Assembly: GCF_900403705.1 (NCBI RefSeq)
Contig: NZ_OUNR01000001.1
Location: 248,001-312,000, forward strand
DNA: 64,000 bases
Source: Nitrospira lenta
GTDB lineage: Bacteria > Nitrospirota > Nitrospiria > Nitrospirales > Nitrospiraceae
Direction of reading: 5' to 3'
The notes under the pieces were generated by a model that was not told where the DNA came from, made no database searches, and worked only from the letters and a program-made list of their open reading frames with translations. Positions within the stretch are counted from its first letter, which is position 1, and each line of letters begins with the position of its first letter. Below, in pieces: positions 14,423-62,005 of the stretch. Both the position numbers and the translations under genes were made by a program.

Positions 14423-14538
14423 TCCTTCCCTACCTCCCAATCTCTCGACAGGACTTTTGACTCTATGCTAGGTTACGCGCTCCCTTGCGGCGGACTTGGC
14501 CGCGTGCAGGGTCTTCTGTGGGTCAGGCCAGCTGTCGT

Positions 14539-15957: not shown

Positions 15958-16019
15958 CCGGTTCGCCCCAAGATAGCCGACAACACTCGCACCACACCTA
16001 TTAAGAGTACGCAACGACG

Positions 16020-19675: not shown

Positions 19676-21094
19676 ATGGCTAACTACGATCTCCTGGTCA
19701 TCGGCACCGGCCCCGCAGGACAGAAAGCCGCCGTCCAAGCGGCCAAGCTCGGCAAAAAGGTCGGCATCATCGAGCGCAACGCCGTCGTCGGCGGCGTGTG
19801 TATCAACACCGGCACCATCCCCAGCAAGTCGCTCCGCGAGGCCGCCCTCTATCTATCCGGGTTTCGCCAACGTAATCTCTACGGCGCGGAGTATCGCGTC
19901 AAAGACCGGATCACGATCGAAGACCTCAGCTTTCAAGCCACGCACGTCATTACGAACGGCATCCAGACCGTCCAGGATCAGATGCGGCGCAACGCCGTCG
20001 ATGTGATCTACGGCACCGCCAGCTTCGTGGATCCGCACCGGCTGCTGGTGCAGCAGCCGTCCGGAACCGTTGAACATACCGCCCACGTCATCGTCATTGC
20101 CGTCGGCACCAAACCGGCCAGGCCGTCCTCGATTCCGTTCGACGGGGAATCCATCATCGACACCGATGAGCTCCTCACCTTGAAACGACTGCCGTCCTCC
20201 ATCGTAATCGTCGGCGGAGGTGTGATCGGGACAGAATACGCGTCGATTCTCGCGATGCTCGGCGTCCCGGTAACACTAATCGACAAGCGTCCGAGGCTGC
20301 TCGAATTCGTGGATATCGAAATCATCGAGACCCTCCAGCGGCAAATGAAAGAGATCGGCGTCACCCTGTACCACGGGGAAGAAGTCGTTGGCATTCAGAA
20401 AGAGCCGGACGGACAGATCACCGTGACCCTGCAACAGGCCAAGCCAATTGTCACCAACACCCTGATGTACGCCATCGGGCGGACGGGCGCGAGCCAGGGA
20501 TTGAATCTCGAACAAGTCGGACTCACCCCAGACAGCCGAGGCCGGCTGACCGTCAATGAACATTTCCAGACCGCAGTCCCTCATATTTATGCCGCCGGCG
20601 ACATCATCGGCTTTCCCGCGCTGGCCTCCACCTCGATGCAACAAGGCCGGCACGCAGCCTGCCATGCGTTCGGCCATCAGGATCGCACCGATACCGCCTT
20701 GCTGCCTTACGGGATCTATTCGATTCCTGAGATCTCCATGGTCGGCCGCAGCGGAGAAGAGCTGACCCAAGCCGGCATCCCATTTGGAGCCGGCATCGCC
20801 CGCTATCGAGAAATTGCTCGCGGTCAGATTATCGGCGATGAGACCGGCATGCTAAAGCTCCTCTTCCATCGACAGACCAAGGAACTCCTCGGGGTGCATA
20901 TCATCGGGGAAGGCGCCACTGAATTGATCCACGTAGGACAGGCCGTCATGGCCTATCATGGAACGATCGACTACTTTATCGACACCGTCTTCAACTACCC
21001 GACCCTGGCTGAATGTTATAAAGTCGCCGCATTGGACGGCATCAACCGGCTGCCACGCCCCTGGCCGGCGACTCCGAAGACTTCAGCTCCTTGA
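19676..21094 (+). CDS. sthA: Soluble pyridine nucleotide transhydrogenase
   Basis: 472 residues, a flavoprotein of the pyridine-disulfide oxidoreductase superfamily that exchanges NADH and NADPH. FAD motif LLVIGTGPAGQKAAVQAAKL, then GGVCINTGTIPSKSLREAAL, in which the second redox cysteine of the dithiol enzymes is replaced, as in SthA; then the NAD motif IVIVGGGVIGTEYASILAML and the C-terminal dimerisation domain with FNYPTLAECYKVAALDG. It begins one base after the peroxidase-like gene and lies 13 bases before tenA. The context suggests NADPH balance, possibly for reductant supply, but this is inferred. Confidence 0.9.
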   Translation: MANYDLLVIGTGPAGQKAAVQAAKLGKKVGIIERNAVVGGVCINTGTIPSKSLREAALYLSGFRQRNLYGAEYRVKDRITIEDLSFQATHVITNGIQTVQDQMRRNAVDVIYGTASFVDPHRLLVQQPSGTVEHTAHVIVIAVGTKPARPSSIPFDGESIIDTDELLTLKRLPSSIVIVGGGVIGTEYASILAMLGVPVTLIDKRPRLLEFVDIEIIETLQRQMKEIGVTLYHGEEVVGIQKEPDGQITVTLQQAKPIVTNTLMYAIGRTGASQGLNLEQVGLTPDSRGRLTVNEHFQTAVPHIYAAGDIIGFPALASTSMQQGRHAACHAFGHQDRTDTALLPYGIYSIPEISMVGRSGEELTQAGIPFGAGIARYREIARGQIIGDETGMLKLLFHRQTKELLGVHIIGEGATELIHVGQAVMAYHGTIDYFIDTVFNYPTLAECYKVAALDGINRLPRPWPATPKTSAP

Positions 21095-30598: not shown

Positions 30599-32446
30599 AT
30601 GGTCGATCTCATCGTGACGTCCGACCACACCAACACCAGACGCGAACACACCCTCACCCGCCTCTTACAACGGGGCGAGCGCCTGCACCGGCGCGGGACA
30701 CAAGCCAGCACACGATTCTCCCGGTGGCGAGGCGTCCTCTTTCTGGTCGGACTGCTCATCACCGTGACGCTCTACCGGCTGGAACAGTACGACGCCGGCA
30801 ACTGGTCGCTCCTGTTGTTCGTCATCGGATTTCTCACAATCGCCGCGTATCATAACAGGCTCGAACACCGGATTCACCGGCTGGCGTTATGGTCCGGCAT
30901 CAAGCGCCAGCATCTCGGCCGTCTGCGTCTCGACTGGAACGCCATCCCGCCCAATCGACCGGTTCAGTCCGCCATACACCTCTATGCCCATGACCTCGAC
31001 CTGCTCGGCCCTCGCTCCCTACTGCATCTCCTCGACACGACCACGTCCACACAGGGCCACGACCGGCTCGCTTCCTGGCTCCTCACTCAACCGCCGGATG
31101 AACAGACCTGGCAGAGCAGACACCGGCTGGTCAAAGAACTGACTCGGCTGACAGGGTTTCGGGATCGGCTGAACGTCCAAGCCCGGCTGACGGGCGAGGC
31201 GGAAATCAACGGGCAACGCATTGAGGCGATCCTGCGGCATCATCTGCATCTGCCCTCCCTCCGCATCGTCCTCCCGATCCAAGCCATACTCGCCGCCACC
31301 ACGCTGATTCTCGGCCTTGGCACGCTGCTCAACCTCATGCCGTCCTATTGGATGATCTCGTTCGGCCTCTATGCGGTGATCTTTTTTCAGACCGATCAGG
31401 GAGAGGAATTGCTGGAGCATGCCGTCGGCCTGCATCATGAAGTCGAAAAACTGGGAACGCTCTTACAGTTCCTGGAGCAGCGCGCCCAGAAACCGGGATC
31501 GGCACTGGCCGCAACCTGCCGCGTGCTCCTAGAAACGGATAAGGCCCCGTCGGCGTTGATTCGACGCCTGGCGTGGGTGCTCCATGGCGTCAGCGTCAAA
31601 GCGCATCCGCTGGTTCACTTGGTGCTCAATGCGCTGTGCCCCTGGGATCTGTTCTTTACCTTCCGCCTGCAACAATTCCAACGGCGGATCCAGCACCTCC
31701 TCCCACTCTGGCTGGATTGCCTCGCCGAAGTGGAAGCCGCATCAGCACTGGCCACCTTCGCCTACCTGCACCCGTCATATACCTGGCCGACACCCCACCG
31801 GACCGAGGCGCTGACCGCCACAGGACTCGGCCATCCGCTCATCCCCGCGGGCAAGCGAGTCACCAACGACATCGCATTTGCACGCCGCGGCATTCTGTAT
31901 CTAATCACCGGTTCAAACATGTCCGGCAAGAGCACCTTCCTCAGAACGATCGGCATCAATCTCTGCCTCGCGCAGGCCGGTGCGCCGGTCTGCGCCAAGA
32001 CCTTTGCCTGGACCTGGAGCCGCCTCGCCTGCTGCATTCGCGTCAACGACTCCCTGGATGCAGGCCTGTCGTTCTTCTATGCGGAAGTGAAACGCTTGAA
32101 GTCGATTCTTCAGGCGACGGAGGATCGAGAGGCCCCGCCGGTGCTGTTCTTGATCGACGAAATTTTCAAAGGCACCAACAACCGTGAGCGGCTCATTGGC
32201 AGTCGGGCCTATGTACGGGCACTAGCCATGGGCAACGGCTACGGCTTGGTCACCACCCACGATCTCGAGCTTGCCGATCTTGACCAATCGATTCCCGCGC
32301 TCACCAACAGCCACTTTCAAGAAACAGTCGCGGCCGGCACACTGCAATTCGATTACACCCTGCGGCCAGGCCCCTGCCCAACGACCAATGCGTTGCGGAT
32401 TATGGAATTGGAAGGACTGCCGATAAACCTCCCGCCGCCTTCATAA
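30599..32446 (+). CDS. MutS-like ATPase with N-terminal membrane helices
   Basis: 615 residues. Two hydrophobic helices lie near residues 40-85 (FLVGLLITVTLYRL, LLLFVIGFLTIAAYH) and two more near 225-270. The C-terminal domain is the MutS ABC-type ATPase: Walker A ITGSNMSGKSTFLRTIGINL (about 437), signature-like VNDSLDAGLSFFYAEVKRLK, Walker B PVLFLIDEIFKGTNNRERL and the TTHD switch. Mismatch-recognition domains I and II of real MutS are absent. This places it with the short MutS-like membrane proteins of unknown function, not with mismatch repair. Divergent from prmA. Confidence 0.8.
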   Translation: MVDLIVTSDHTNTRREHTLTRLLQRGERLHRRGTQASTRFSRWRGVLFLVGLLITVTLYRLEQYDAGNWSLLLFVIGFLTIAAYHNRLEHRIHRLALWSGIKRQHLGRLRLDWNAIPPNRPVQSAIHLYAHDLDLLGPRSLLHLLDTTTSTQGHDRLASWLLTQPPDEQTWQSRHRLVKELTRLTGFRDRLNVQARLTGEAEINGQRIEAILRHHLHLPSLRIVLPIQAILAATTLILGLGTLLNLMPSYWMISFGLYAVIFFQTDQGEELLEHAVGLHHEVEKLGTLLQFLEQRAQKPGSALAATCRVLLETDKAPSALIRRLAWVLHGVSVKAHPLVHLVLNALCPWDLFFTFRLQQFQRRIQHLLPLWLDCLAEVEAASALATFAYLHPSYTWPTPHRTEALTATGLGHPLIPAGKRVTNDIAFARRGILYLITGSNMSGKSTFLRTIGINLCLAQAGAPVCAKTFAWTWSRLACCIRVNDSLDAGLSFFYAEVKRLKSILQATEDREAPPVLFLIDEIFKGTNNRERLIGSRAYVRALAMGNGYGLVTTHDLELADLDQSIPALTNSHFQETVAAGTLQFDYTLRPGPCPTTNALRIMELEGLPINLPPPS

Positions 32447-32590: not shown

Positions 32591-35500
32591 ATGTCCATTC
32601 CATCGTCGCATCCGCTTCGCGGTCTGTTGATCGCGCAATTCTTCGGCGCCTTTAACGACAACGCCTGGAAACTCATAGTCGCGCTCCTCGGCATTCGTCA
32701 GGTCGCGGCGACCCTGGCGCCGGGCGCGGATCTGGAAGCAGCCTCTCAATCGCAGACCACGCTCACATTTGTCATCTTCACACTCCCGTTGGTGCTGATC
32801 TCGCTGGTGGCCGGTGTGGTGGCGGATCGCATCAGCAAACGCACCGTCATCGTGTCCATGAAAGCCGTTGAAGTCGGCCTCATGGCGGCCGGCACCGTCG
32901 CCCTCTTTATCGATCAGGCCGGGGGCTGGCTGCCCCTCATCGTACTCGGCTGTATGGGCGCCCACAGCGCACTCTTCAGCCCGGCGAAATATGGAATCTT
33001 GCCTGAAATTCTGCCGCACGACCGGCTCACCCAGGGCAATGGCATTCTTGAATTGAGCACCTTCCTCGCAATTCTTGGCGGCACCGCCGTCGGGGGAATG
33101 CTGCTGGAGGGCGCAGGCTCATCCACCTGGCTGGCTCCGCTGGCGCTCACGCTGTTCTCGCTCATCGGCTTCGGCGCATCGCTGACCGTCCCTTCCGTCC
33201 CGGTCGCCCGGACAGAGGGAGGCATCGGCTCCACGCTCGGAGGAGCCATTCACGCCGTCCGCGCCAGCCAAACCTTGCTGCTCACGATCCTCGGCGCCGC
33301 CTTCTTCTGGACGATCGCCAGCCTGGTCGGCCAAGATATGTTGGTCTACGCCAAAACGGTCCTGACCCTGCCGGACTCGCTCTCCGGCCTCCCGCTCGCC
33401 GTGCTCTCGATCGGCATCGGCGCCGGCGCCATGCTCGCGGGAAAACTTTCCGGCGAGCGCATCGAGTACGGCTTGATTCCCATGGGCGCCATCGGGATCT
33501 GGGTGTTTCTCTTACTGCTGGGACTGCTCGGTCCAGCACTCTACGGCACACTCATCTTGATGGCAGGACTTGGCCTGTCCTGTGGACTCTTTGTCGTGCC
33601 CATAAATTCCTTGATCCAGTGGCATGCGCCCACCGATCGGCGCGGAAGCATCATTGCCCTCTCAAATACCTGCACGTATAGTGGCGTCCTCATGGGATCG
33701 CTCAGCGGCGGCATCTTGGCATCTCTCGGCCTTTCCAGCACCGGCATTCTACTCGCGGCGGCTGCGGCCACCTTCGCCGGCACCCTGTGGGCCCTCTGGC
33801 TGGTCCCCGGCGCCTTCGTCCGCCTCGTCCTCATGCTCCTGACTAAAACGCTCTATCGAGTGCGCATTGTCGAACCGGCACACGTACCGCAAACAGGCGG
33901 CGCGCTTCTGGTCCCGAACCACATGTCGCTGGTCGACGGGTTTCTCCTGATCGCCAGCCTCGACCGCCCGGTCCGCTTTGTAGTCGATGCCGCCTACGCG
34001 ACCCATCCGTTGTTCAAATGGTTGATGGACATTATGCAGGTCATCCCGATTTCTTCTTCCGGGGGACCGAGGGTCATCCTGCGCGCGCTCCGTAGCGCCG
34101 GTCAGGCACTCGACGACGGCGAGCTCGTCTGCATCTTCCCGGAAGGGCAAATCACCAGAACCGGCACGCTCTTGCCGTTCCGCCGTGGATTCGAACGCAT
34201 CGTGAAAGGACGCACCGTCCCCATCATCCCGGTTCATCTGGATCGCGTCTGGGGCAGCCTCTTCAGCTTCGTCAAAGGCCGCTTCATCTGGAAGCTTCCG
34301 GAACAGATTCCCTATCCGGTGACAGTCTCCTTCGGCGCGCCGCAACCGGCCGGGACTCCGGCGCATGAACTCCGCCGGCTCGTGCGCGAGCTGGGTGAAG
34401 CCGCCTGGAGATTGCGTAAAGCCGACCAGCAACCGATCCATCGCCCGGTCATCACCGCCTGGCGCCGCCATCCGCTCACCTTTGCTATGGCCGACGCCTC
34501 TCGCCCGCGCATCACCGGACTCAAAGCCTTGATCGGCACCGTCACGCTGGCGCGCGCCATGCGAACGCACTGGCGGGGCCAGCGTCATGTGGGGCTGCTC
34601 CTGCCTCCGAGCGTGCCCGGTGCGCTGCTCAACGTCGCCGCCGCCCTCGCTGGAAAAACCAGTGTGAATCTGAATTACACCGTCGGCCGTGTCGGGCTGG
34701 AATCGGCAGTGACTCAGGCCGACCTCAAGACCGTGCTCACCAGCCGTCTGTTTATCGACAAGGCCAAATTGGAAATCCCCGGCAGCGTCACGGTCTTGTA
34801 TCTGGAAGATATCGCCAGGACGATATCCGGCGGCGAGAAATTCACCGCCTTGCTGCTGGGACTCTTCGCGCCGATCGGCCTTCTGGAGCGGGCCTGCGGC
34901 CGGGAGCAGCCGATCAGCCTGGACGATCTGGCCACGATCATCTTCAGCAGCGGCAGCACGGGTGAACCCAAAGGCGTCATGCTCTCGCACTTCGCAATCA
35001 ATGCGAACGTCGACGGCGCCGGACAGGTCATCCACATCAGCCAAGCCGATCGCGCCTTGGGCATCCTTCCCTTCTTCCATTCGTTCGGCTATATGCTGCT
35101 CTGGTTCTATGCGCGCAATAATACCGGCATCGTCTTTCACCCGTCTCCGTTGGATGTCGGCGCCATCGGTGAACTTTGCAGCCAGTACCGCATTTCCCTC
35201 CTGGTCGTCACGCCGACCTTCTTACAGCTCTATCTGCGCCGCTGCACGCCTGAACAATTCAGTAACCTGCGTGTCGTGCTGACGGGCGCGGAAAAACTCC
35301 CGCTCCGCCTCGTGCAGGCATTCCAGGACAAGTTCGGCATCACCCCGGTCGAAGGCTACGGCGTGACGGAGTGCGCGCCCGTCATCTCGGCCAACTGTCC
35401 GGACTTCCGCGCCTCCGGCTTCTACCAGGTGGCGTCGCGCCGAGGGACTGTCGGCCAGCCGTTTCCCGGCGTGTCGGTGCGCATCGTCGATCCGGAGACC

Positions 35501-36016
35501 TGGGCCATTCTGCCGCCGGGCCAATCCGGCATGCTGCTGGTCAAAGGTCCCAATGTGATGAGCGGCTATCTCGGCAGGGAAGACCTCACGGCCAAGGCGA
35601 TGAAAGACGGCTGGTACATTACCGGCGACATTGCGACGCTGGACGACGATGGATTTCTCACGATTACCGACCGGCTCTCCCGCTTTTCAAAAATCGGCGG
35701 CGAGATGGTGCCTCACGGAAAAGTCGAAGAAGCCTTGCAACAGGCCGCCGGCGCAGATCTGCAAGTCTTCGCCGTGACCGGCCTCCCGGACGAGAAAAAG
35801 GGCGAACGGCTGGCCGTGCTCTACACCATCGACGACGCGATGCTCCCGACCGTGCTCGACAAGCTCGCCACCAGCGGATTACCCAATCTCTTTATCCCGG
35901 CCAAAAACCAATTCGTGAAAGTCGACGCGCTGCCGATCCTCGGCACCGGCAAGTTGGATTTGCGTGGAGTCAAACGGATCGCGATGGAACGACTGGCCCA
36001 GGACAGCGCGCCCTGA
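32591..36016 (+). CDS. aas: MFS transporter / PlsC acyltransferase / acyl-ACP synthetase fusion
   Basis: 1141 residues in three parts. Residues 1-410: a 12-helix MFS domain of LplT type (AQFFGAFNDNAWKLIVALLG). Residues about 420-620: PlsC-like acyltransferase with HX4D box PNHMSLVDGF (about 442) and FPEGQITRTG. Residues about 640-1141: AMP-binding ligase with IIFSSGSTGEPKGVMLSH (about 782), GYGVTECAPV and ITGDIATLDDDG. The architecture matches lysophospholipid import plus 2-acyl-glycerophosphoethanolamine reacylation (LplT plus Aas), so it is predicted to salvage lysophospholipids at the inner membrane. All three active-site motifs look intact. The symbol is used for the family. Confidence 0.85.
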   Translation: MSIPSSHPLRGLLIAQFFGAFNDNAWKLIVALLGIRQVAATLAPGADLEAASQSQTTLTFVIFTLPLVLISLVAGVVADRISKRTVIVSMKAVEVGLMAAGTVALFIDQAGGWLPLIVLGCMGAHSALFSPAKYGILPEILPHDRLTQGNGILELSTFLAILGGTAVGGMLLEGAGSSTWLAPLALTLFSLIGFGASLTVPSVPVARTEGGIGSTLGGAIHAVRASQTLLLTILGAAFFWTIASLVGQDMLVYAKTVLTLPDSLSGLPLAVLSIGIGAGAMLAGKLSGERIEYGLIPMGAIGIWVFLLLLGLLGPALYGTLILMAGLGLSCGLFVVPINSLIQWHAPTDRRGSIIALSNTCTYSGVLMGSLSGGILASLGLSSTGILLAAAAATFAGTLWALWLVPGAFVRLVLMLLTKTLYRVRIVEPAHVPQTGGALLVPNHMSLVDGFLLIASLDRPVRFVVDAAYATHPLFKWLMDIMQVIPISSSGGPRVILRALRSAGQALDDGELVCIFPEGQITRTGTLLPFRRGFERIVKGRTVPIIPVHLDRVWGSLFSFVKGRFIWKLPEQIPYPVTVSFGAPQPAGTPAHELRRLVRELGEAAWRLRKADQQPIHRPVITAWRRHPLTFAMADASRPRITGLKALIGTVTLARAMRTHWRGQRHVGLLLPPSVPGALLNVAAALAGKTSVNLNYTVGRVGLESAVTQADLKTVLTSRLFIDKAKLEIPGSVTVLYLEDIARTISGGEKFTALLLGLFAPIGLLERACGREQPISLDDLATIIFSSGSTGEPKGVMLSHFAINANVDGAGQVIHISQADRALGILPFFHSFGYMLLWFYARNNTGIVFHPSPLDVGAIGELCSQYRISLLVVTPTFLQLYLRRCTPEQFSNLRVVLTGAEKLPLRLVQAFQDKFGITPVEGYGVTECAPVISANCPDFRASGFYQVASRRGTVGQPFPGVSVRIVDPETWAILPPGQSGMLLVKGPNVMSGYLGREDLTAKAMKDGWYITGDIATLDDDGFLTITDRLSRFSKIGGEMVPHGKVEEALQQAAGADLQVFAVTGLPDEKKGERLAVLYTIDDAMLPTVLDKLATSGLPNLFIPAKNQFVKVDALPILGTGKLDLRGVKRIAMERLAQDSAP

Positions 36017-40231: not shown

Positions 40232-40485
40232 TCAGGAAGCCCCGGTGCCCGGCCAGGAGTTCCACCCGTACGGATGAACACGGATGATCAGCAATCGCGG
40301 CAACGCTTCCGGTCAAACACAGCAGAACGCCCGGCGCGCCAATTAGAAACCAGCGCCGCTCTGTTGGTATTCCGGAGGACTGTGAAGGAAAATGACGACG
40401 CACGACTCTCCTGGCGCATCCGCCAGTAACGAGGCGTGACGCCTATATGGTACATATACGGACGTCAGAAACGGGAATCTCATAT

Positions 40486-41160
40486 ATGAAAACGATTCCA
40501 GGGTTCACCGCAGCCGCTGGCCAGTTGGCAGAAATCGCCCGTTGGTCGCACCGGAACGGATGGGCACCCGCCACAAGCACCAACTACAGCGTCCGCCTTC
40601 CAAACGAAGCCATACCAGCTCTTTGCGCGATTACGAGTTCGGGTGTGGACAAAGAGCATCTCGGAACCGAGCATGTGCTCGCGATCGACCACCAGGGTCG
40701 GCCGGTCTCGGACACGAAACTGATCCCTTCGGCGGAAACGGCTTTACATCTCATGCTCTACCGCACCATGCATGCCGGCGCCGTGTTGCACACTCATTCA
40801 CTCGCCGCCACGCTCCTTTCTCAACGCGCCAGCGAGCAAGGGCACCTCTCTCTCTCCGGTTGGGAACTGCTGAAAGGGTTGGAGGGCATCAAGACACACG
40901 AGTGCACCGTTCAGCTCCCGGTGTTTCCCAACGCACAAGACATTCCCACACTCGCCGTCTTGATCGAAGCGGCGCTCACCGCCGTTCCAGCCTCCTACGG
41001 CTTTCTCTTAGCGGGACATGGCCTCTACGTGTGGGGACGCGATCTCTCCGAGGCTAAACGCCATCTCGAAACGTTCGAGTTCATTCTGCAATGCGAATTG
41101 GAGATTCGACGCCATGGCCATACTTCAAGTGCCGGACCGGCATACGTCTCACACGGATGA
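40486..41160 (+). CDS. mtnB: Methylthioribulose-1-phosphate dehydratase
   Basis: 224 residues from the ATG at 40486. Class II aldolase fold: GWAPATSTNYSVRLP at the N-terminus, zinc ligands in VLHTHSLAATLLSQ (HxH) and a third histidine in FLLAGHGLYVWG. It dehydrates MTRu-1-P in methionine salvage. mtnD begins inside its last codons (overlap of 47 bases in another frame), and mtnC overlaps mtnD by four bases, so the three are translated together. No riboswitch was recognised upstream. Confidence 0.9.
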   Translation: MKTIPGFTAAAGQLAEIARWSHRNGWAPATSTNYSVRLPNEAIPALCAITSSGVDKEHLGTEHVLAIDHQGRPVSDTKLIPSAETALHLMLYRTMHAGAVLHTHSLAATLLSQRASEQGHLSLSGWELLKGLEGIKTHECTVQLPVFPNAQDIPTLAVLIEAALTAVPASYGFLLAGHGLYVWGRDLSEAKRHLETFEFILQCELEIRRHGHTSSAGPAYVSHG

Positions 41161-41647
41161 AACGGAGATCCGGCGCTTTCTCAACGCGCGAGGAATCATG
41201 TACGACCGGTGGCCCTCCCCTGCGACGGTTTCGTCGGCCACGCCGGACGGTGAGGTGCTGGCTGCCTACCGAGACCGGCTCACCCCGCTCATGGAACAGG
41301 GCGGTTACCGGACGGTCGACGTGGTCACGGTGACCGGCCGGACGCCGAACCTCGACGCGATCCGCGACAAGTTTCTGCGCGAACACACCCACGACGAAGA
41401 CGAAGTGCGCATGTTTGTCGAAGGCGAAGGCCTGTTCTGGTTCCATCTGGAACGGGAAGAAGACGAAGTGTTTTCCTTGCTCTGCCAAGCCGGTGACATC
41501 ATTGCGGTCCCGGCCAACACCAAACACTGGTTCGATCTGGGGAAACATCCCGCCGTGCGGGCCATTCGGATCTTCACCGACCAAGCGGGCTGGGTTCCGC
41601 ACTACACGAATTCCCACATCGAAGAACACTACCAGGCCGGCGCATGA
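41114..41647 (+). CDS. mtnD: Acireductone dioxygenase
   Basis: 177 residues from ATG 41114, within the end of mtnB. Cupin metal site: REHTHDEDEVRMFVEGEG supplies two histidines and Glu, and VPANTKHWFDLG the third histidine. It oxidises the acireductone of methionine salvage with Fe (to the keto acid) or Ni (off-pathway). Order mtnB-mtnD-mtnC is a common compact operon. Confidence 0.93.
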   Translation: MAILQVPDRHTSHTDETEIRRFLNARGIMYDRWPSPATVSSATPDGEVLAAYRDRLTPLMEQGGYRTVDVVTVTGRTPNLDAIRDKFLREHTHDEDEVRMFVEGEGLFWFHLEREEDEVFSLLCQAGDIIAVPANTKHWFDLGKHPAVRAIRIFTDQAGWVPHYTNSHIEEHYQAGA

Positions 41648-42369
41648 CGATCCGCTGCGTGGTCATGGATATCGAAGGGACGATTCTCCCGATCACGTTC
41701 GTACGGGAGACGCTGTTCCCCTATGCGCATCACCATCTCGACCGGTTCTTAGCCGATCATCGAGACGATGGCGACGTCCGCCGCTGGCTGCTCCTCTGCC
41801 AGGACACCGTGGCGCAGGAAGAGGGCGTCAGGCCCACAGAGAACCAGCTTCCCGACATCCTTCGACGCTGGATGACGCAAGACCGCAAGCACACAGGACT
41901 CAAGGGATTACAGGGACTCATCTGGGAAGAAGGCTACCGGAACGGCGCGTTCGCACCGGAACTCTATGACGATGTGACCGACACCCTGTCCGCCTGGCAT
42001 GTCGGCGGGCTGCAACTCGCTCTCTATTCATCCGGCTCCGCGCAAGCCCAACACCTGCTCCTCACCCATACGACAACAGGCGATCTCACCAGCCTCTTCG
42101 CCCATTACTTCGATACGGAAATCGGCCTCAAAGCGGATGCCGCGTCCTATCGTCGCATCGCCGAACAGTTGGCACTCCCACCAGGCACGATATTGTTTCT
42201 TTCCGATATCGAAGCCGAACTGGATGCCGCCACTATGGCTGGTTTTCAGGCCATGCAGATTGTCCGTCCCGGCACGAAAGCCGGCACCCGCCATCCGATC
42301 GCAGCACGCTTCACCGACATCGACCTCACCCGCGTCGGCTCCGCAAATACTTGGCCAGCACCCCGCTGA
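41644..42369 (+). CDS. mtnC: Enolase-phosphatase E1
   Basis: 241 residues of the HAD superfamily. Motif I VMDIEGTILPITFVRETLFP (DxEGT typical of MtnC), motif II region LALYSSGSAQAQHLL and motif IV LFLSDIEAELDAATMAGFQA. It converts the diketone phosphate to acireductone, feeding MtnD. Its ATG overlaps the mtnD stop (ATGA), so translation is coupled. mtnA and mtnK are not in the window. Confidence 0.93.
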   Translation: MTIRCVVMDIEGTILPITFVRETLFPYAHHHLDRFLADHRDDGDVRRWLLLCQDTVAQEEGVRPTENQLPDILRRWMTQDRKHTGLKGLQGLIWEEGYRNGAFAPELYDDVTDTLSAWHVGGLQLALYSSGSAQAQHLLLTHTTTGDLTSLFAHYFDTEIGLKADAASYRRIAEQLALPPGTILFLSDIEAELDAATMAGFQAMQIVRPGTKAGTRHPIAARFTDIDLTRVGSANTWPAPR

Positions 42370-42801: not shown

Positions 42802-45129
42802 TCACGGCGGCCCGTTGCGCAACTCCGTGCCATGCATCCTAGCAAAGAGATCCCAGTCAAACTGTTTGGGCGACACGGCATGCAGCGGGATCGCGTCGAT
42901 CGCTCCGCGCTCGCGATACGCCATCATGCACCCGACGACATCCTCCGGGCGCTCCACTAAACGATGGACCGTCTCATAGGCCAGATGCTGGGCAATGGCT
43001 TTGTCTTCCGGTGTCGGAGGAGCGCCCCGCAACGTGTGGCCGAGAATGGTAGCCTTGGTCGCGAGCGTCAATGGATATTGGCCGGGCTTCGCATGACGCT
43101 GAGCCCATCCGCCGATCGCGCCGGCCACGTAGTCGACCAAGCCATGCACTCCACCCTCCCGGTGATGCCGATGAGGGGTTCGTTCGGCCACGACAAACAA
43201 GTGGCTCTTGTTGGGCACTCCCAACGTGCGCTTCAGCGTGCCGAGAATCACCTCATCGATATAGGCATCGGGATCGGGATGTTCGTTGACCAATAAGCCC
43301 TCAGCCCGCGCTTGATAAGCGCAGGCGAGCGCCAGATGTCCCGACCCCGCGCCCATCACTTCTACGAAAAAGACGCTCCCCATGGCGGCACTCGTCGCCT
43401 TGAGCGACTCAATAGACTGATCCGCCAGGGCCATGGCTGAATGGTAGCCGAGCGAGATGGTGCCTTCGAGATTGTTGTCGATGGTTCCGGGTATGCCCAC
43501 GACCTGCACGCCGAACCCTTCGTAAATCGCCCGCGCCCCGCGGAAACTTCCGTCGCCTCCCAGGACCACCAACGCCGCGTCTTCTAGGAAGGGCGCGAGG
43601 TGCCCGACCGCCGCCCGCTGAACCAGTTCGTCTTTAAAGTCCTCGAAGCGGCTGCTGCCGATGGGACTGCTCGCATGGCTGCTCATGCCGCGGGTATCTT
43701 CTTCGGTCACCGGTTCGATCCAATTGTTCGCGAGCCCGAGGAACCCGTGCCGGACGAAATGAACCTCCAGACCGAATCGATACGCCTGTACGCGCAACTC
43801 TTTCAAGGCGGCGCCGGCGCCGGCGAAGTCTCCCCCCGAGACCAGCGCTACGATCCGCTTGATCTGCCGAGGTTTCAGCGTCACCCGGTCTTTCCGTACC
43901 CGCTCCACCGCCATCCATGAATCCCGCGAGGCCCGCTCCCGCTCCGATAATCCAACCGCCGTGGAATAGCCCGACAAGTGCCCTTTCTCAAACGTGAGCA
44001 GCACGACATTGTCCTGGCTTTCTTTGTAGTCGCTGAACTCCGTGAAGGCTTCGTGAAACGGGCGCGCATCCAGATAAATCATGAGGGCCCGCAACGTCGA
44101 ACTGTGCGTGTACAGGCAGGCTGCTTGCCCCGCATGCGCGGCCCCCAATTGGTGCAGCCCATCGATCACATCGACGTAGAGATCGAAAAACGAATTGCCG
44201 CCGGGATAGCAATACAGCGGATCTTTGATCAGCCGTTTCGCGGTCGACACCTCGACGCCGAACGCCGCGGCCAGCTCCTGGACCTCCACCGTCTTTTCGA
44301 CGCCCGTGATCCATCCGAAATCCGACGACTCCAAAGCGGGCGCATACACAGCCTCGGTCGGAGGAAGCGGGTCACGGGCCAGCGCAGCCCTCACGCGCTC
44401 AAAGAGTTGCCGCGTGTTGGGACTCCGGCTGATGAAGTGGAGAAACCCGCGCGGCTCCAGGTAATTCGACAAATGGAGAAAATCCAGCTGCTGCCCGACC
44501 ACGCCGACCATCCGGGCCAGCGCGGCCCCCACGACGTCAGCCCGCGGCACGCCCCGTTCAACATCCAATTGATTCGCCAACCGGCGACCGACCCGATGGG
44601 TTTTACTCTCGACGCGGGAAATGCCGTGGCGCATGGTAAAGAGCAGCGTGCGGCCGGACAATTCACGCGGCAGGAGCCAGAATCGATCATCGCCCAAATC
44701 GAGCACGATACGTCCATCCGCCAGCTGCGGCGTGAGCTGCGCACGCGGCACGATCGCCACCGGACGCCGCTGAGTCGGCTTCAACACCGATCCGATCGGC
44801 GCCCGCATCAAGGGGTGAAGCGCGCCTTCCGCGAGCAACCGGTTCCAGGCGGCAAAAAATACCAGCGGATCGCCGGCGCAGGCGTCATCGATCACGGCTT
44901 GCCTGGCCGACCGATAGGCGTCAGCTCTGGGAAATCCCGCGCGAGCGCGGGCGACAAAATCCTTGATCGACGCCATCGCCTGGCGCGCTCGCGCGGCACG
45001 GTCGTTCGACGAAGCCGGAGCGGGCGGCGCCGACACGCCGTCGATCGCCGGGCGGCGCGCGAACTGCTCTCCATAGGCCAGCAGGCCTTCAATCGTCACG
45101 AAATCAAGCGAATCTGTGGTACTCTGCAT
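42802..45129 (-). CDS. Fusion of a histidine-phosphatase domain and a 6-phosphofructokinase domain
   Basis: 775 residues. Residues ~1-150 unknown, helical. Residues ~160-400 resemble fructose-2,6-bisphosphatase: LFTMRHGIS (His168), YCYPGGNSFFDLYVDVIDGL where a glutamate is expected but Asn is present, and YTHSSTLRA (His342). Residues ~425-775 are PfkA-like: ALVSGGDFAGAGA (432), VLGGDGSFRGA (524), PGTIDNN (547; catalytic Asp551 kept, next Asp is Asn) and VMGAGSGHLA in place of MGRxxGxxA. Glycines at the ATP/PPi marker positions point to ATP. AAGGAGG precedes the ATG. Divergent from pyruvate kinase. Activity of either half is unproven. Confidence 0.75.
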   Translation of the reverse strand: MQSTTDSLDFVTIEGLLAYGEQFARRPAIDGVSAPPAPASSNDRAARARQAMASIKDFVARARAGFPRADAYRSARQAVIDDACAGDPLVFFAAWNRLLAEGALHPLMRAPIGSVLKPTQRRPVAIVPRAQLTPQLADGRIVLDLGDDRFWLLPRELSGRTLLFTMRHGISRVESKTHRVGRRLANQLDVERGVPRADVVGAALARMVGVVGQQLDFLHLSNYLEPRGFLHFISRSPNTRQLFERVRAALARDPLPPTEAVYAPALESSDFGWITGVEKTVEVQELAAAFGVEVSTAKRLIKDPLYCYPGGNSFFDLYVDVIDGLHQLGAAHAGQAACLYTHSSTLRALMIYLDARPFHEAFTEFSDYKESQDNVVLLTFEKGHLSGYSTAVGLSERERASRDSWMAVERVRKDRVTLKPRQIKRIVALVSGGDFAGAGAALKELRVQAYRFGLEVHFVRHGFLGLANNWIEPVTEEDTRGMSSHASSPIGSSRFEDFKDELVQRAAVGHLAPFLEDAALVVLGGDGSFRGARAIYEGFGVQVVGIPGTIDNNLEGTISLGYHSAMALADQSIESLKATSAAMGSVFFVEVMGAGSGHLALACAYQARAEGLLVNEHPDPDAYIDEVILGTLKRTLGVPNKSHLFVVAERTPHRHHREGGVHGLVDYVAGAIGGWAQRHAKPGQYPLTLATKATILGHTLRGAPPTPEDKAIAQHLAYETVHRLVERPEDVVGCMMAYRERGAIDAIPLHAVSPKQFDWDLFARMHGTELRNGPP

Positions 45130-45161
45130 GCCCCTCCTTCACCTCGGGGTCGTTGGCCCGA

Positions 45162-45192
45162 TCACCGACAGGTGACGCCCATCACCGGGCGT
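45162..45192. promoter_or_regulatory. Two adjacent small palindromes between divergent glycolytic genes
   Basis: TCACC-GACA-GGTGA (45162-45175) and ACGCCC-ATCACC-GGGCGT (45175-45192) lie back to back in the 119-base gap between the phosphofructokinase-like fusion gene and pyk. The position suits an operator acting on both genes. Confidence 0.35.
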
Positions 45193-45248
45193 GAACGAGT
45201 GCATCATTGGGTGTCCGCCGTTTCTTGTCAAGAGCTGAGGAGAGCACC

Positions 45249-46706
45249 ATGCGAAAGGCAAAGATAGTCTGTACGATCGGGCCCGCCAGTAATTCGCTGA
45301 CGATGTTGGAACGGCTTATTGAAGCCGGCATGGATGCCGCCAGGCTGAACTTCTCCCATGGGGATCATGACACCCACGCGGCTGCCATCACCGCAATTCG
45401 TCAGGCGGCGGAGCGCCGCCAGGCGGCCGTCGCAATTATCCAGGATCTGCAGGGGCCCAGGATTCGCGTGGGCGAGTTACCCGATGCGGGAATCATGGTG
45501 AAAATGGGCCAATCGGTGCGGCTGCAGACGATGCTGGCGCGGTCCGGCGGTCAGCTCGGCGCACAGTCGATCGCCGCGGCACACTCCGCCATCCCTGACA
45601 TCCCCGTCACCTACCCCTATCTGGCTCGCGATCTCAGACCCGGCGCGCGGATCCTGATCAACGACGGACTGATCGAACTGCTGGTCGATCGCATCTCCGG
45701 CGGAGCCGCCGAATGTACCGTCGTCACCGGAGGGGCCATCACCTCGCATAAGGGCATCAATTTACCGGGCACGTTCGTCAGCGCGCCCACCCTGACCGAC
45801 AAAGACCGGGAAGACATCCGGTTCGGCATCGCCCACGGCGTCGATTACCTGGCCCTCTCCTTCGTCAGAGGGCCTGAAGATATTCTGGCCGCACGGGCAT
45901 TGGTCGCCGAATGCGGCGGCACGTTGCCGATTATCGCCAAGATCGAACGGGCCGAAGCCGTCACCGCCCTGGATGCGATCCTGGAACAGGCGGACGGGGT
46001 CATGATTGCGCGGGGAGATCTGGGCGTTGAGATGGGTCCCGAAGCCGTGCCGCTGTTGCAAAAACGCATTATCACGGAAGCGAACCGCCGCCGCCGTCTC
46101 GTCATTACCGCCACGCAAATGCTGGAGTCGATGACCCAGGCCCTGCGTCCGACCAGAGCGGAAGCCTCGGATGTCGCCAATGCCGTGTTCGACGGCACCG
46201 ATGCGGTCATGCTGTCAGCTGAAACAGCCATCGGAGCGTACCCAGTGGAGACGGTTCAAGTCATGGGTCGCATCATTTGCGCGGCAGAGGAAGGTCCCGA
46301 ACCAGGCGTGAAACCCAAGCGTCACACCGATTGGGGAGAGATGGCCTTCCCCGAAGCGATCTGTACTGCAGCGGCCTCGGCCGCCAAAGCCATCACGGCC
46401 GGTGTGATCGTCGCCTTCAGCGAGCGGGGCACGACGGCGCACCTCATCTCGAAACAGCGACCGGCCGCACCGATCATCGCCCTCACCCCGTTTGAGCCGA
46501 TCAGGAAGCGCATGGCCCTCTATTGGGGCGTGCGTCCCTATACCATGCCGCAAATCGAACAGACCGATGCCCGCGTGGACGAGGCCGCGCGACGGCTAAA
46601 AGCGGAGGGGCTGGCTAAAACCGGAGAACGGATTGTGATTCTTTCCGGGACTCGCATCGGGCAACCGGGGGGAACGAATCTGATCAAGCTGCACGTCGTG
46701 GAATAA
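45249..46706 (+). CDS. pyk: Pyruvate kinase
   Basis: 485 residues from the ATG at 45249 (GAGGAGA upstream); an earlier GTG at 45207 is rejected because MRKAKIVCTIGPASNSLTM is the family start. Catalytic barrel: AARLNFSHGDHDTH, PIIAKIERAEAVTALDAILE, MIARGDLGVEMGPEAVP and TQMLESM. The C-terminal regulatory domain ends GGTNLIKLHVVE. It makes pyruvate and ATP from PEP. Divergent from the PFK-like fusion, suggesting joint control of glycolytic or gluconeogenic flow. Confidence 0.95.
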   Translation: MRKAKIVCTIGPASNSLTMLERLIEAGMDAARLNFSHGDHDTHAAAITAIRQAAERRQAAVAIIQDLQGPRIRVGELPDAGIMVKMGQSVRLQTMLARSGGQLGAQSIAAAHSAIPDIPVTYPYLARDLRPGARILINDGLIELLVDRISGGAAECTVVTGGAITSHKGINLPGTFVSAPTLTDKDREDIRFGIAHGVDYLALSFVRGPEDILAARALVAECGGTLPIIAKIERAEAVTALDAILEQADGVMIARGDLGVEMGPEAVPLLQKRIITEANRRRRLVITATQMLESMTQALRPTRAEASDVANAVFDGTDAVMLSAETAIGAYPVETVQVMGRIICAAEEGPEPGVKPKRHTDWGEMAFPEAICTAAASAAKAITAGVIVAFSERGTTAHLISKQRPAAPIIALTPFEPIRKRMALYWGVRPYTMPQIEQTDARVDEAARRLKAEGLAKTGERIVILSGTRIGQPGGTNLIKLHVVE

Positions 46707-57541: not shown

Positions 57542-60500
57542 CTACCCGGCCGGTATCCTGCCTGAAACACGTGTCGCGGGCCGGTGAATCACCGGCCCGT
57601 CCTTGGCAGTCACGGTCCGGGCAACCACTCCGTCTCTCAACACGATGAAGTTCGAGGGCACCGCGGCGACGCGCGGCCCGGGCAGGATCACGCCGACAAG
57701 ATTCAAGGGATCGGACGCTGAAAGCTTGATCTCTGATCCCGCCGCAGCGCCCCCCACCGTCTTGCGCATGGCACGTAAGGCTTCGACGGCTTCCGGCAGC
57801 GCGAACTGCTCCCCGACAAAACCCGACACAAATCGCCCGCCGCGCAGCTCTCCTTGCAGTTCTAATTTCCGATACACCACGATCAGATCCCGCCACGACT
57901 GCACCAACGATTCCCGCACTAACAGATCCCGGAAGACCACCCCGTACCGGCGCAACAGCTGGCGGGCAACGGCCTCAGCGGCGCTCTGCTGGATGCTGAG
58001 CGCTGAGGACAGAGCCGGATCCCTGAGCAACGTCCAGCGTCCCGCAGTATGCCGCGGGCGGCGCGCCCGCCCCTCGGCACGGCGGCGTCGCGGATCCATG
58101 AGAGCACGCAGATTGTCGAACCCGTCGGCCGTCACCAGTCCGGCCGCAACGAGTTCCCACAGCCCCGCTTCGACTTCCGCCGACAGATGATTGGTCAGCC
58201 GTACCAGATCCGCAAAGAAGCTCGCGCCTCGCTCGTGCAATGTACGCCGCAGATCCTGGGCCACCGCACTCAACTGACCATAGGGGTCAGGGCCGGCCTG
58301 CGCCGCACCCTCTGCGAATGCCGCCATCAACCACTCTCCATCCTCACGCGGAAACACACTGATCGGTGCGACGCTAGTGGGTACAATGCGCCGAGCTTTA
58401 TCAGATTCACCGGCGGATGCCAGGCGCGGATGCGGGGAGAGTCGCCCCCAACTGACCGCACCGCTGAGGCAGAGACGGTCCAACAGCTCCGGCTCATACT
58501 TCGCCAGACGCACGCGCAAGAGCTGCGGCTCCCAGGCTGACGCCGCCGCTTCGAACCCGGCCAGTTGAGTGATGATCTGCGTGAGGCCGGCCTCCCCATG
58601 CTGCCGAGAGCCCGGCGTCACATGCTGCCACTGAAGCAGAAAGCGCATGAACTCAGTGGCGGTCACCGGCTCGATGTCCTTGCGCAACCGGCCGATCGTC
58701 AATCGATGGATCCGCGCCAGGAGCCGGCGATGACACCATTCGGATGCGGAGATGCCGGAGAGTGCTGAATCCTGGGTACTGAGTCCTGAGTGCGATCTGA
58801 ATTGCCCACGGAGGACTTGGCCCTGCGATTCCAATTTCAGCATCGCCGCCATGACGCCATCGGCGGGCAGATGCAGCCGATCGGCCAGCTGCAACACCGT
58901 CGTCGGCCCAATACTCTCCATCCACCCCTGCACCACCGTCACCAGAACCTCTTCATCACCAGCCGCAAACAATCGTTCAACCCGCTCACGGTTCTCCGCT
59001 GCCACCCAGCCACGCACGGCTCCCGCCTCACCCCTCGCCGACAACTCCACGATCCGCCCTTCTTCGATGAGGCGCGGAAGAAACACGACCCAAGACGCTC
59101 CTTCTTTGACCGGCACCCAGACCAGCGTCAGCAGCGCATCGTGGAGTTCATCGGCATCCCGGACCACCGGCCACGCCTCCCGCTCGACGTCTGCAATCGC
59201 CGCCGGGTCGAGTGCGCCGACCTGCCCGAGCATCTCCGGCGGCAAAGTCTGCCGCATCTCCACCGCCCTGGCGCGGCGCTCTTCCAGCGGCGCGTCATCG
59301 AGAAAGGCATAGGGGTTGGCGTTCAAAATTTCATAAGAAAAGACCGAGGGCACGGGCGTATCCACCGCGACGCAGCGAATCGTGCCGGCTTCGATGGCCT
59401 GCAACACGGTCGTCAGCCCCTCCAGATCCATCGCCTCCGTCAGGCAATCGCGGATGGTTTCGTTCACGAGGGGATGATCCGGAATCTGCCTGGCCGCCCG
59501 CTCGCCGGTGAGATTCTCCTGGCAGGCGATCGCATCCGGAAAGACGGCTGCGAGCAAATCTTCTGACTTCATCCGCTGAATCTGCGGAGGCACCTTCTTG
59601 CCGTTGGAAAATCTGAGCAGCGCCAGCGAACGCGACGCATTCCACCGCCAACGGGTCGCAAACATCGGTGCGAGCAAGACCGCTTGGATCAGTACCTCAC
59701 GGACCGTCTTCGAATGGAGATACCCAAAGACGGACTCCAGCGGAAAGCTGTGCTTCTCACCGAGCGAGATCACCAAACCGTTATCTGTCGCCGCGGCCTG
59801 CAACTCGAAATCGAACGTGACGCAGAACCGTTTGCGCAGCGCGAGACCCCAGGCTCGGTTGATCCGCCCGCCGAAGGGCGCATGTACAACCAACTGCATC
59901 CCGCCGCTCTCGTCAAAGAACCGTTCCGCGACGATCGTGTCCTGCGTCGGCACGGTCCCCAGCACGGCCTTGCCGGTGAGGACGTATTCGATCACCTGCT
60001 GCGCACCACGCTGATCCAGCGCACACTCGCTCTTGAGCCACCCGATGGCTGACAGATGACTGACGGCCGGATCAGCAGACAGTGCGCGCTCGGCAATCGC
60101 GTGCCGCAACAAAGCCACCTCCGCCGATAATTCAGCCGTCCGCGACGGAGCCTCGCCCCGCCAGAACGGAATGTTGGGCGGCGCACCCTGCGCGTCTTCG
60201 ACACGGACCTTCCCCGCCTCGATCCCTTTGATCCGCCACGACGTATTGCCCAGCAACATGATGTCGCCGGCGAGACTCTCCACCGCGAAATCCTCGTCGA
60301 CCGACCCCACCACCGTCCCATCGGGCTCCGCCACCACCGCGTAATTGGCCGTGTCAGGAATCGCGCCGCCGGAGGTGATCGCCGCCAGCCGCGCACCGCG
60401 CCGCCCCTTGATCCGCCGATTGATCCGATCATGGAACAGATAGGCCAGGCCCCGCCCCCGCTGGGTAGCGATCCCGTCGGCCAGCATGTGCAAGACGCCA

Positions 60501-61843
60501 TCGAACTCGGCCCGCGAAAGGTCCCGATAGGGATAGGCGCGCCGGCACAAGGCAAAGAGTTCGTCCTCCGTCCAGGTCTGGCTGGCCGAGGCTGCAACAA
60601 TCTGTTGGGAGAGAATGTCGAGCGGAGCGGGTGGGATCGCGATCTGATCCAGCGTCCCCCGGCGAATCGCGCGCACGAGCGCCGCGCACTCCAGCAGTTC
60701 ATCCCGCGTCATGGCAAAGATGCGGCCTTTGGGAATCGCCTTGACCCAGTGGCCCGCGCGGCCGATCCGTTGCAGCCCGGCGGCGATGGCGCGCGGCGAA
60801 CCGATCTGACAGACGAGATCGACCGTGCCGACATCGATCCCCAGTTCCAACGAGGCTGTGGCAATGACCACGCGCGTCTTGCCGGCCTTCAATCGCTCTT
60901 CTGCCGACAGACGAATCTGCCGCGACAAACTGCCGTGATGCGCCGCTACCGCGTCAGGGCCCAGATCCTGGAGCCGCTCTTCCAGGTAATGCGACACCCG
61001 TTCAGCCAGCCGGCGGGTATTGACGAACACCAGCGTCGACCGGTGCTGCCGCACGAGTTCAGCCACGCGGTCATAGACATCGGACCAGATGGCGTTCGTG
61101 GCGACGGCACTCAGCTCATCCTTCGGCACTTCAACGGCCAGATCCAATTCTCGGCGATGCCCGACATCGATGATCGTCGGACGCGGGCGAGCTCCAACCA
61201 GAAACTCCGCCACCAGCTCGATCGGCCGTTGCGTGGCCGACAAGCCGATGCGTTGCGACTTCACCAGCGTCAACGCTTCCAGTCGTTCCAGCGACAGGGC
61301 CACATGAGCGCCCCGCTTGTTCGGCGCCAGTGCGTGGATTTCATCGACGATGACCGTTCGCACGGTCTGCAACATGCGCCGGCTTTTCTCCGCCGTCAGG
61401 AGGATGAACAGCGACTCCGGCGTCGTGACGAGAATATGCGGCGGCCGCTTCAGCATCTGCTGCCGATCCGCCATCGGCGTATCGCCGGTGCGCACCAGCA
61501 CGCGCAGCTCCGGCATCAGCAAGCCCGCGTGCAATGCCATCTGTCCAATCTCCGCCAGCGGCTTTTGAAGATTCTTCTGAATGTCATTGCTCAAGGCCTT
61601 CAGCGGCGAGACGTACAACACCTGCGTGTGATCGTCGAGGTCGCGGGCAAGAGCTTGTTTGAAGAGAGAATCGATGCAGGACAGAAAGGCCGCGAGCGTT
61701 TTCCCCGATCCGGTCGGCGCGGCAATGAGCGCGTCTGATCCTGATTGAATCGCCGGCCAGGCCTGCTGCTGCACATCCGTCGGCTGTCCGACCTGCGTCA
61801 GGAACCATTCCGCGATGAGGGGATGAAAGGAAGACAGTGGCAT
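57542..61843 (-). CDS. lhr: Lhr-type large DEAD/DEAH helicase
   Basis: 1433 residues from ATG 61843; a start 27 bases earlier adds WYVVRFHA and is unlikely. RecA1: Q-motif PTDVQQQAWPAIQSG, Walker A AAPTGSGKTLAAFLSCID, DEIH box VIVDEIHALAPNKRGA. RecA2: STLVFVNTRRLAERVSHYLE and QIGSPRAIAAGLQRIGRAGH. A winged-helix/DUF4011-like bulk (the Lhr core) and a long C-terminal extension follow. Lhr proteins are SF2 ATP-dependent 3'-5' DNA/RNA helicases tied to repair. The length is at the large end (Lhr about 1500). Single gene. Confidence 0.9.
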   Translation of the reverse strand: MPLSSFHPLIAEWFLTQVGQPTDVQQQAWPAIQSGSDALIAAPTGSGKTLAAFLSCIDSLFKQALARDLDDHTQVLYVSPLKALSNDIQKNLQKPLAEIGQMALHAGLLMPELRVLVRTGDTPMADRQQMLKRPPHILVTTPESLFILLTAEKSRRMLQTVRTVIVDEIHALAPNKRGAHVALSLERLEALTLVKSQRIGLSATQRPIELVAEFLVGARPRPTIIDVGHRRELDLAVEVPKDELSAVATNAIWSDVYDRVAELVRQHRSTLVFVNTRRLAERVSHYLEERLQDLGPDAVAAHHGSLSRQIRLSAEERLKAGKTRVVIATASLELGIDVGTVDLVCQIGSPRAIAAGLQRIGRAGHWVKAIPKGRIFAMTRDELLECAALVRAIRRGTLDQIAIPPAPLDILSQQIVAASASQTWTEDELFALCRRAYPYRDLSRAEFDGVLHMLADGIATQRGRGLAYLFHDRINRRIKGRRGARLAAITSGGAIPDTANYAVVAEPDGTVVGSVDEDFAVESLAGDIMLLGNTSWRIKGIEAGKVRVEDAQGAPPNIPFWRGEAPSRTAELSAEVALLRHAIAERALSADPAVSHLSAIGWLKSECALDQRGAQQVIEYVLTGKAVLGTVPTQDTIVAERFFDESGGMQLVVHAPFGGRINRAWGLALRKRFCVTFDFELQAAATDNGLVISLGEKHSFPLESVFGYLHSKTVREVLIQAVLLAPMFATRWRWNASRSLALLRFSNGKKVPPQIQRMKSEDLLAAVFPDAIACQENLTGERAARQIPDHPLVNETIRDCLTEAMDLEGLTTVLQAIEAGTIRCVAVDTPVPSVFSYEILNANPYAFLDDAPLEERRARAVEMRQTLPPEMLGQVGALDPAAIADVEREAWPVVRDADELHDALLTLVWVPVKEGASWVVFLPRLIEEGRIVELSARGEAGAVRGWVAAENRERVERLFAAGDEEVLVTVVQGWMESIGPTTVLQLADRLHLPADGVMAAMLKLESQGQVLRGQFRSHSGLSTQDSALSGISASEWCHRRLLARIHRLTIGRLRKDIEPVTATEFMRFLLQWQHVTPGSRQHGEAGLTQIITQLAGFEAAASAWEPQLLRVRLAKYEPELLDRLCLSGAVSWGRLSPHPRLASAGESDKARRIVPTSVAPISVFPREDGEWLMAAFAEGAAQAGPDPYGQLSAVAQDLRRTLHERGASFFADLVRLTNHLSAEVEAGLWELVAAGLVTADGFDNLRALMDPRRRRAEGRARRPRHTAGRWTLLRDPALSSALSIQQSAAEAVARQLLRRYGVVFRDLLVRESLVQSWRDLIVVYRKLELQGELRGGRFVSGFVGEQFALPEAVEALRAMRKTVGGAAAGSEIKLSASDPLNLVGVILPGPRVAAVPSNFIVLRDGVVARTVTAKDGPVIHRPATRVSGRIPAG

Positions 61844-62005
61844 GGCGTGAAATCTTACCACGTACCACAAGGCTGCTCCACAAGAGCAGGCGGCCTGCGT
61901 AGTCGATCTCTCAACGATGTACAGTCATCACACCAATAGACCGATAGAGATAGCGAACAGATCCGGCTGGCGGCATGAACAACCCTGCCTCAATGGCCCT
62001 CACAG

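Follow-up and report, generated by a model that had tools for sequence, protein, structure and literature searches.

A histidine phosphatase joined to a remodelled phosphofructokinase domain in Nitrospira lenta and related Nitrospiria, often encoded beside pyruvate kinase

Phosphofructokinases (PFKs) of the PfkA type (PF00365; E. coli structure 1PFK) are recognised by a GGDG sequence, the mark of ATP use, and by the family motif P(G/K)TIDXD; their Arg162 is one of the four ligands of the phosphate of fructose-6-phosphate (F6P) (PMC12203962) and their Asp129 binds Mg2+ (PMC10339645). In the PFKFB enzymes, a P-loop 6PF2K domain precedes a branch-1 histidine phosphatase, a class of fold also represented by PhoE/YhfR (1EBB), H. 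thermophilus PspA (4IJ5/4IJ6), dPGM and TIGAR. Our analysis concerns a gene of Nitrospira lenta that joins domains of these kinds in another way. It occupies positions 42802..45129 on the minus strand of the window, the 64,000-nucleotide stretch that was analysed, and is an intact ORF of 775 codons plus stop with an ATG start; the first-pass annotation had described exactly this single 775-residue chain and had left its strand unstated. From the N-terminus, the chain consists of a helical extension, a histidine-phosphatase fold and a PFK-A fold. It is like PFKFB in that a domain of sugar-kinase type shares one chain with a branch-1 histidine phosphatase, with a similar YPGGxS block, but its kinase-type part has the PFK-A fold and comes after the phosphatase. 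As the kinase fold is thus unrelated and the domain order reversed, the fusion is not a member of the PFKFB family, and a PFKFB by homology was also rejected because no 6PF2K domain (PF01591) is encoded in the genome. The likeness to PFKFB proposed earlier holds for a kinase-type/phosphatase chain built from different parts, and not for membership; the opposing activities on one substrate pair suggested with it are hypothetical. The yeast PFK with an N-terminal glyoxalase-like domain offers a parallel for a PFK that has gained a domain at its N-terminus (PMC12203962), although that domain is unrelated to the one added here and the yeast enzyme keeps its catalytic half. Since the fusion lacks the marks of PfkA (MGR, D129, the equivalog score) as well as those of PFKFB (6PF2K, domain order), we file it under neither.

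Both domains come from known superfamilies, and what appears to be new, within the open literature searched, is their combination, their order and the fixed redesign of the PFK domain. That search, confined to openly readable papers, returned no paper on the Nitrospiria fusion. The main text of a PFK superfamily review from 2025 does not contain the word 'phosphatase', and so does not cover the fusion (PMC12203962).

The host genome is 3.76 Mb in size and 99.98% complete. The residues quoted in the first-pass annotation are all there (R167-H168-G169, T341-H342-S-S, Y308-P-G-G-N312-S-FFDL, SGGD, GGDGS, PGTID551-NN and MGAGSG). A plus-strand ORF opposite the gene (43978-45267) has the appearance of a mechanical antisense frame. 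The N-terminal helical extension (residues 1-138, LDFVTIEGLLAYGE...; 44716..45129, minus strand), delimited from the AlphaFold2 model and dN/dS, gave no family match and, compared within the longer chain, no fold match; with a dN/dS of 0.18-0.40 it is the least constrained part of the fusion. Just downstream of the gene, beyond a YnfA-family protein, lies a methionine-salvage cluster (40447-42369, plus strand) with mtnB, mtnC, encoding acireductone synthase, and a cupin-like ORF as a possible mtnD. Elsewhere in the window we noted an RHS-repeat protein of 691 aa (11267-13342, plus strand); biotin carboxylase and carboxyltransferase/biotin subunits of a pyruvate or 2-oxoacid carboxylase (14485-17978, plus strand), with a dihydrolipoamide dehydrogenase-like gene nearby (19676-21094); a 615-aa protein in which MutS domain V is the sole recognised domain (30599-32446, plus strand); a 1141-aa protein in which an MFS transporter domain is joined to an acyltransferase domain and to an AMP-binding domain of acyl-ACP synthetase type (32591-36016, plus strand); and a 1442-aa Lhr-type helicase scoring 1413 bits against the PADLOC DpdJ model (57542-61870, minus strand).

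The PFK half was predicted earlier to be PfkA-like with ATP-type markers, which Pfam, alignments and fold comparison bore out. The domain spans residues 421-775 (42805..43869, minus strand); PF00365 matches residues 425-722 with an E-value of 9e-53, and residues 422-765 take the PFK-A fold, aligning on 1PFK in VIA-align (Z 27.2, 219 residues, 2.4 A) with 30% identity over the aligned part, the AlphaFold2 model of this half being partly poor (residues 573-665 at pLDDT <50). At the level of conserved residues, our comparison showed a sugar-phosphate site that has been rebuilt and an ATP-type donor site that has been kept. On the donor side, GGDG, the PG before [TS]ID and the adenine-pocket Gly531 are found in all 109 members of the family alignment; the PPi-type motif GGDD is absent, and assignment as a PPi-PFK was rejected on account of the ATP-type donor motif. 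The equivalents of E. coli R72 (R494) and of the general base D127 (Asp551; 43477..43479, minus strand) are likewise invariant, and those of E222, H249 and R252 are retained. Unlike in PfkA, the Arg of MGRxxG (R171) is replaced by Ala594 of MGAGSG (43348..43350, minus strand) and D129 by N553, each in 108/109 members, so that the final Asp of P(G/K)TIDXD is missing; in nearly all members S/T585 replaces R162 and K692 replaces R243, and E649 (the E222 equivalent) is followed by a His-rich loop, 'ERTPHxHHxGGxHG', that is new and nearly invariant. Canonical PFKs of the class Nitrospiria keep TIDND, MGR and R162. The score against the PfkA equivalog TIGR02482 (172.7 bits) is far under the cut-off of 371.35. 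The altered active sites pointed out earlier are thus evolutionarily fixed, and since the catalytic domains are also under strong constraint (dN/dS 0.02-0.13 overall, 0.02-0.08 for the PFK domain), the changes in the PFK half are a matter of redesign and not of decay. With R171, R162 and D129 gone, an ordinary fructose-6-phosphate kinase is less likely.

The phosphatase half (residues 139-395; 43945..44715, minus strand) was assigned to branch 1 of the histidine phosphatases by Pfam matches in relatives, the AlphaFold2 model, VIA-align and Foldseek. Against the N. lenta protein itself, the Pfam His_Phos_1 match is weak and under the family cut-off (residues 300-361, E 0.006); the domain is matched in 69/70 relatives, with a best E-value of 1e-6. 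The first-pass annotation had left the fold to be judged by structure, and AlphaFold2, given a 70-member family alignment, returned a confident N-terminal half (mean pLDDT 86.5) in which residues 139/160-393 align on branch-1 histidine phosphatases with Z 15-17 and about 15-19% identity, confirming the fold; the highest values were obtained with 9O8J (Z 17.1, 206 residues, 2.9 A), 1EBB (Z 17.0, 195 residues, 2.5 A) and 4IJ6 (Z 17.0, 195 residues, 2.7 A). The fusion shares with these enzymes the RHG motif, S-P-x-x-[R], and a second His followed by an Arg at +5; R167-H168-G169, with His168 in the position of the nucleophile (44626..44628, minus strand), the second catalytic His position H342 in THSS (44104..44106, minus strand) and R347 occur in 109/109 members. 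It differs from them in its large N-extension, its joined PFK domain, a second phosphate-pocket Arg that is not conserved and an acid Glu block that looks shifted. That second Arg, R240 in the N. lenta protein, is Arg in 74/109 members; the other 35 have Glu (13 loci of N. defluvii type and one further locus), Thr, Lys, Ser, His or Gln, a variability that makes phosphatase catalysis across the whole family less likely. The catalytic acid of fructose-2,6-bisphosphatase and PGM enzymes is the Glu of an 'L-x-E' block and not that of 'YPxGES'. The earlier observation of Asn in place of an expected Glu was right as to N312, but this is not the catalytic-acid position: the 'GES' position holds His (59) or Asn (50) across the 109 members, and the acid block itself reads L-[ED]-S, judged by eye to be shifted by one in N. 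lenta (L266-E267-S268), so that both Glu positions are changed or shifted. The domain has a dN/dS of 0.07-0.13, well below 1.

Of the earlier description of this domain as fructose-2,6-bisphosphatase-like, the histidine-phosphatase fold stands and the specific identity is putative: the VIA-align list is headed by dPGM, PhoE and phosphoserine phosphatase, and the profile of the N-terminal domain reached PFKFB2 with an E-value of 0.47 only. The same data bear on whether the fusion is a convergent analogue of PFKFB that both makes and destroys fructose-2,6-bisphosphate, a compound that would then regulate pyruvate kinase, whose gene adjoins. The phosphatase block 'DPLYCYPGGNSFFDL...THSS' is PFKFB-like, and TIGAR and PFKFB3 are at the top of the Foldseek matches, where leading E-values are nearly equal, so that several substrate classes are candidates. 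Against these stand the order of the VIA-align list, the replacement of the Arg of PFKFB 'RYP' by Cys or Ser in nearly all members, the absence of 6PF2K from both protein and genome, and the chemistry itself, since we know of no precedent for a 2-kinase reaction on a PFK-A fold. We consider such an analogue very unlikely.

The fusion is ancient, strongly conserved, specific to the class Nitrospiria and under purifying selection. Full-length orthologues with 64-95% identity (a few being contig-end fragments) occur in 158/269 Nitrospiria genomes and 35/56 genera, the carriers including N. moscoviensis (L045), Ca. N. defluvii (L079) and a Manganitrophaceae MAG (L103); the named relatives, at 95% identity, are Nitrospira. 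Across the phylum (395 genomes), the N-terminal half was found in Nitrospiria only and its whole copies are always joined to the PFK half. Identity in the PFK half drops from 71% in fused members to 37% or less in the PFKs that come next; these are all unfused, a 78-aa fragment in genome G241 aside. When 84,980 species genomes were scanned, the best 80 of 119 matches were Nitrospirota-type loci only; two loci (L097 and L099) bear other NCBI labels and look like misassignments. A viral origin was rejected, the viral contigs searched having yielded no relatives of the fusion. The survey of genomes proposed in the first-pass annotation found no relative in which the fusion is split into two genes, and rejected split genes or an assembly chimera. 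The same full-length ORF in so many genomes excludes chance or assembly joining, and with an intact frame in more than 100 separately assembled genomes and dN/dS well below 1, an artefact of assembly or annotation, or a decaying gene, hardly deserves consideration; all that could be set on its side is one relative broken by several internal stops (genome G225, C1:133633-135936), the sole clearly broken copy seen.

As described earlier, the fusion gene is divergent from a pyruvate kinase gene, pyk (45249..46706, plus strand), the two start codons being 119 bp apart. This pyk is the single copy in the N. lenta genome and matches the equivalog TIGR01064 at 529 bits. A pyk gene adjoins the fusion in 34/49 loci flanked by 4 kb or more on each side, a count uncorrected for ancestry, in divergent, same-strand and convergent orientations; in loci of one family (f3; L021, L022, L024, L025 and others), the neighbouring pyk is about 37% identical to that of Nitrospira. 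Given the several orientations and the distinct f3 gene, the association has outlasted rearrangement and involves two pyk lineages. The basal families sampled have no pyk beside the fusion. In the 185 genomes that are 90% complete or more, pyk is present in 113/116 with the fusion vs 39/69 others, counts that ignore shared ancestry.

The same 185 genomes bear on whether the fusion functions as a 6-phosphofructokinase and serves glycolysis in genomes that have no other PFK, the phosphatase domain being a regulatory add-on. It is the only PF00365 protein in the N. lenta genome and 23 others, the PfkB-type matches in N. lenta are all far under the 1-PFK cut-off, the ATP site, the base and the H249 and R252 equivalents are kept, and fusion and pyk presence are associated. 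On the other side, the MGR Arg, D129, R162 and R243 are lost, the equivalog score falls far short, a canonical ATP-PFK (about 350 bits) coexists with the fusion in basal families, and 37/185 Nitrospiria genomes live without any PFK, as has been described for some members of the class (PMC9239080). We regard this role as unlikely. Replacement of an ordinary PFK by simple complementarity was rejected, as the two are positively associated, phylogeny being ignored (92 genomes with the fusion and another PFK, 24 with the fusion only, 32 with another PFK only and 37 with none). Neither GlpX nor 6PF2K was found in the N. lenta genome, which encodes a class I FBPase elsewhere; the fusion is thus not needed for hydrolysis of fructose-1,6-bisphosphate and is unlikely to be the cell's only FBPase.

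The rebuilt active sites and the usual pyk neighbour suggest that the fusion is probably an uncharacterised control point of sugar metabolism and not a normal phosphofructokinase. One form this could take is a ligand-binding pseudoenzyme, in which both domains have lost catalysis and serve as sensors of ATP/sugar-phosphate and of a phosphoester, regulating pyruvate kinase or another partner. The regulatory C-terminal half of eukaryotic PFK-1, a former catalytic site turned into a fructose-2,6-bisphosphate sensor, provides a precedent, and the loss of R171, D129 and R162, the variable second phosphatase Arg and the shifted acid Glu are consistent with it; but the invariance of D551, R494, the ATP motifs, His168, His342 and Arg347 in 109 members is more than binding needs, and we view a pure sensor as possible, though on balance doubtful. 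Our preferred reading, held tentatively and at somewhat less than even confidence, is a remodelled ATP-dependent sugar-phosphate kinase/phosphatase or sensor that controls flux near pyruvate kinase. It draws on a donor site kept in 109/109 members next to an acceptor and magnesium side that is rebuilt and fixed, and on the strong constraint on both domains; a role separate from that of PFK is suggested by the other PFK present in 92/116 fusion genomes and by the canonical ones in basal families, and the link to pyruvate kinase by the 34/49 adjacency and the co-occurrence of pyk. Weighing against it are the variable R240, the basal families that lack the pyk neighbour, and the 24 genomes whose sole PF00365 protein is the fusion, where an ordinary PFK role is conceivable. 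In such a remodelled enzyme, the PFK domain would still bind ATP-Mg and use Asp551 as base, with an acceptor that would be a sugar-phosphate other than F6P or F6P bound otherwise; the phosphatase domain would bind the same phosphoester or a related one, which some lineages at least would also hydrolyse. The fusion would then set or sense the level of one phosphorylated metabolite, and the balance of glycolysis and gluconeogenesis would be tuned jointly with the linked pyruvate kinase. Its mode of action may be somewhat like that of PFKFB. A more specific version, in which the PFK-A-fold kinase makes and the phosphatase removes a regulatory sugar bisphosphate controlling pyruvate kinase, as a second, independently built kinase/phosphatase switch, strikes us as rather improbable.

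Nitrospira, among which are the comammox organisms, account for much of the nitrite oxidised globally. In genome studies, conclusions on their sugar metabolism depend on whether a 'phosphofructokinase' gene is present (e.g. PMC9239080). The only such gene of N. lenta is the fusion, with a sugar-phosphate site that is not that of a phosphofructokinase, and annotations based on PFK may therefore be wrong. Should the fusion prove to be an active switch, bacteria would have in it a counterpart of the fructose-2,6-bisphosphate system; and if it does act through a sugar bisphosphate, it would fill, with unrelated kinase parts, the role that PFKFB and fructose-2,6-bisphosphate have in eukaryotes.
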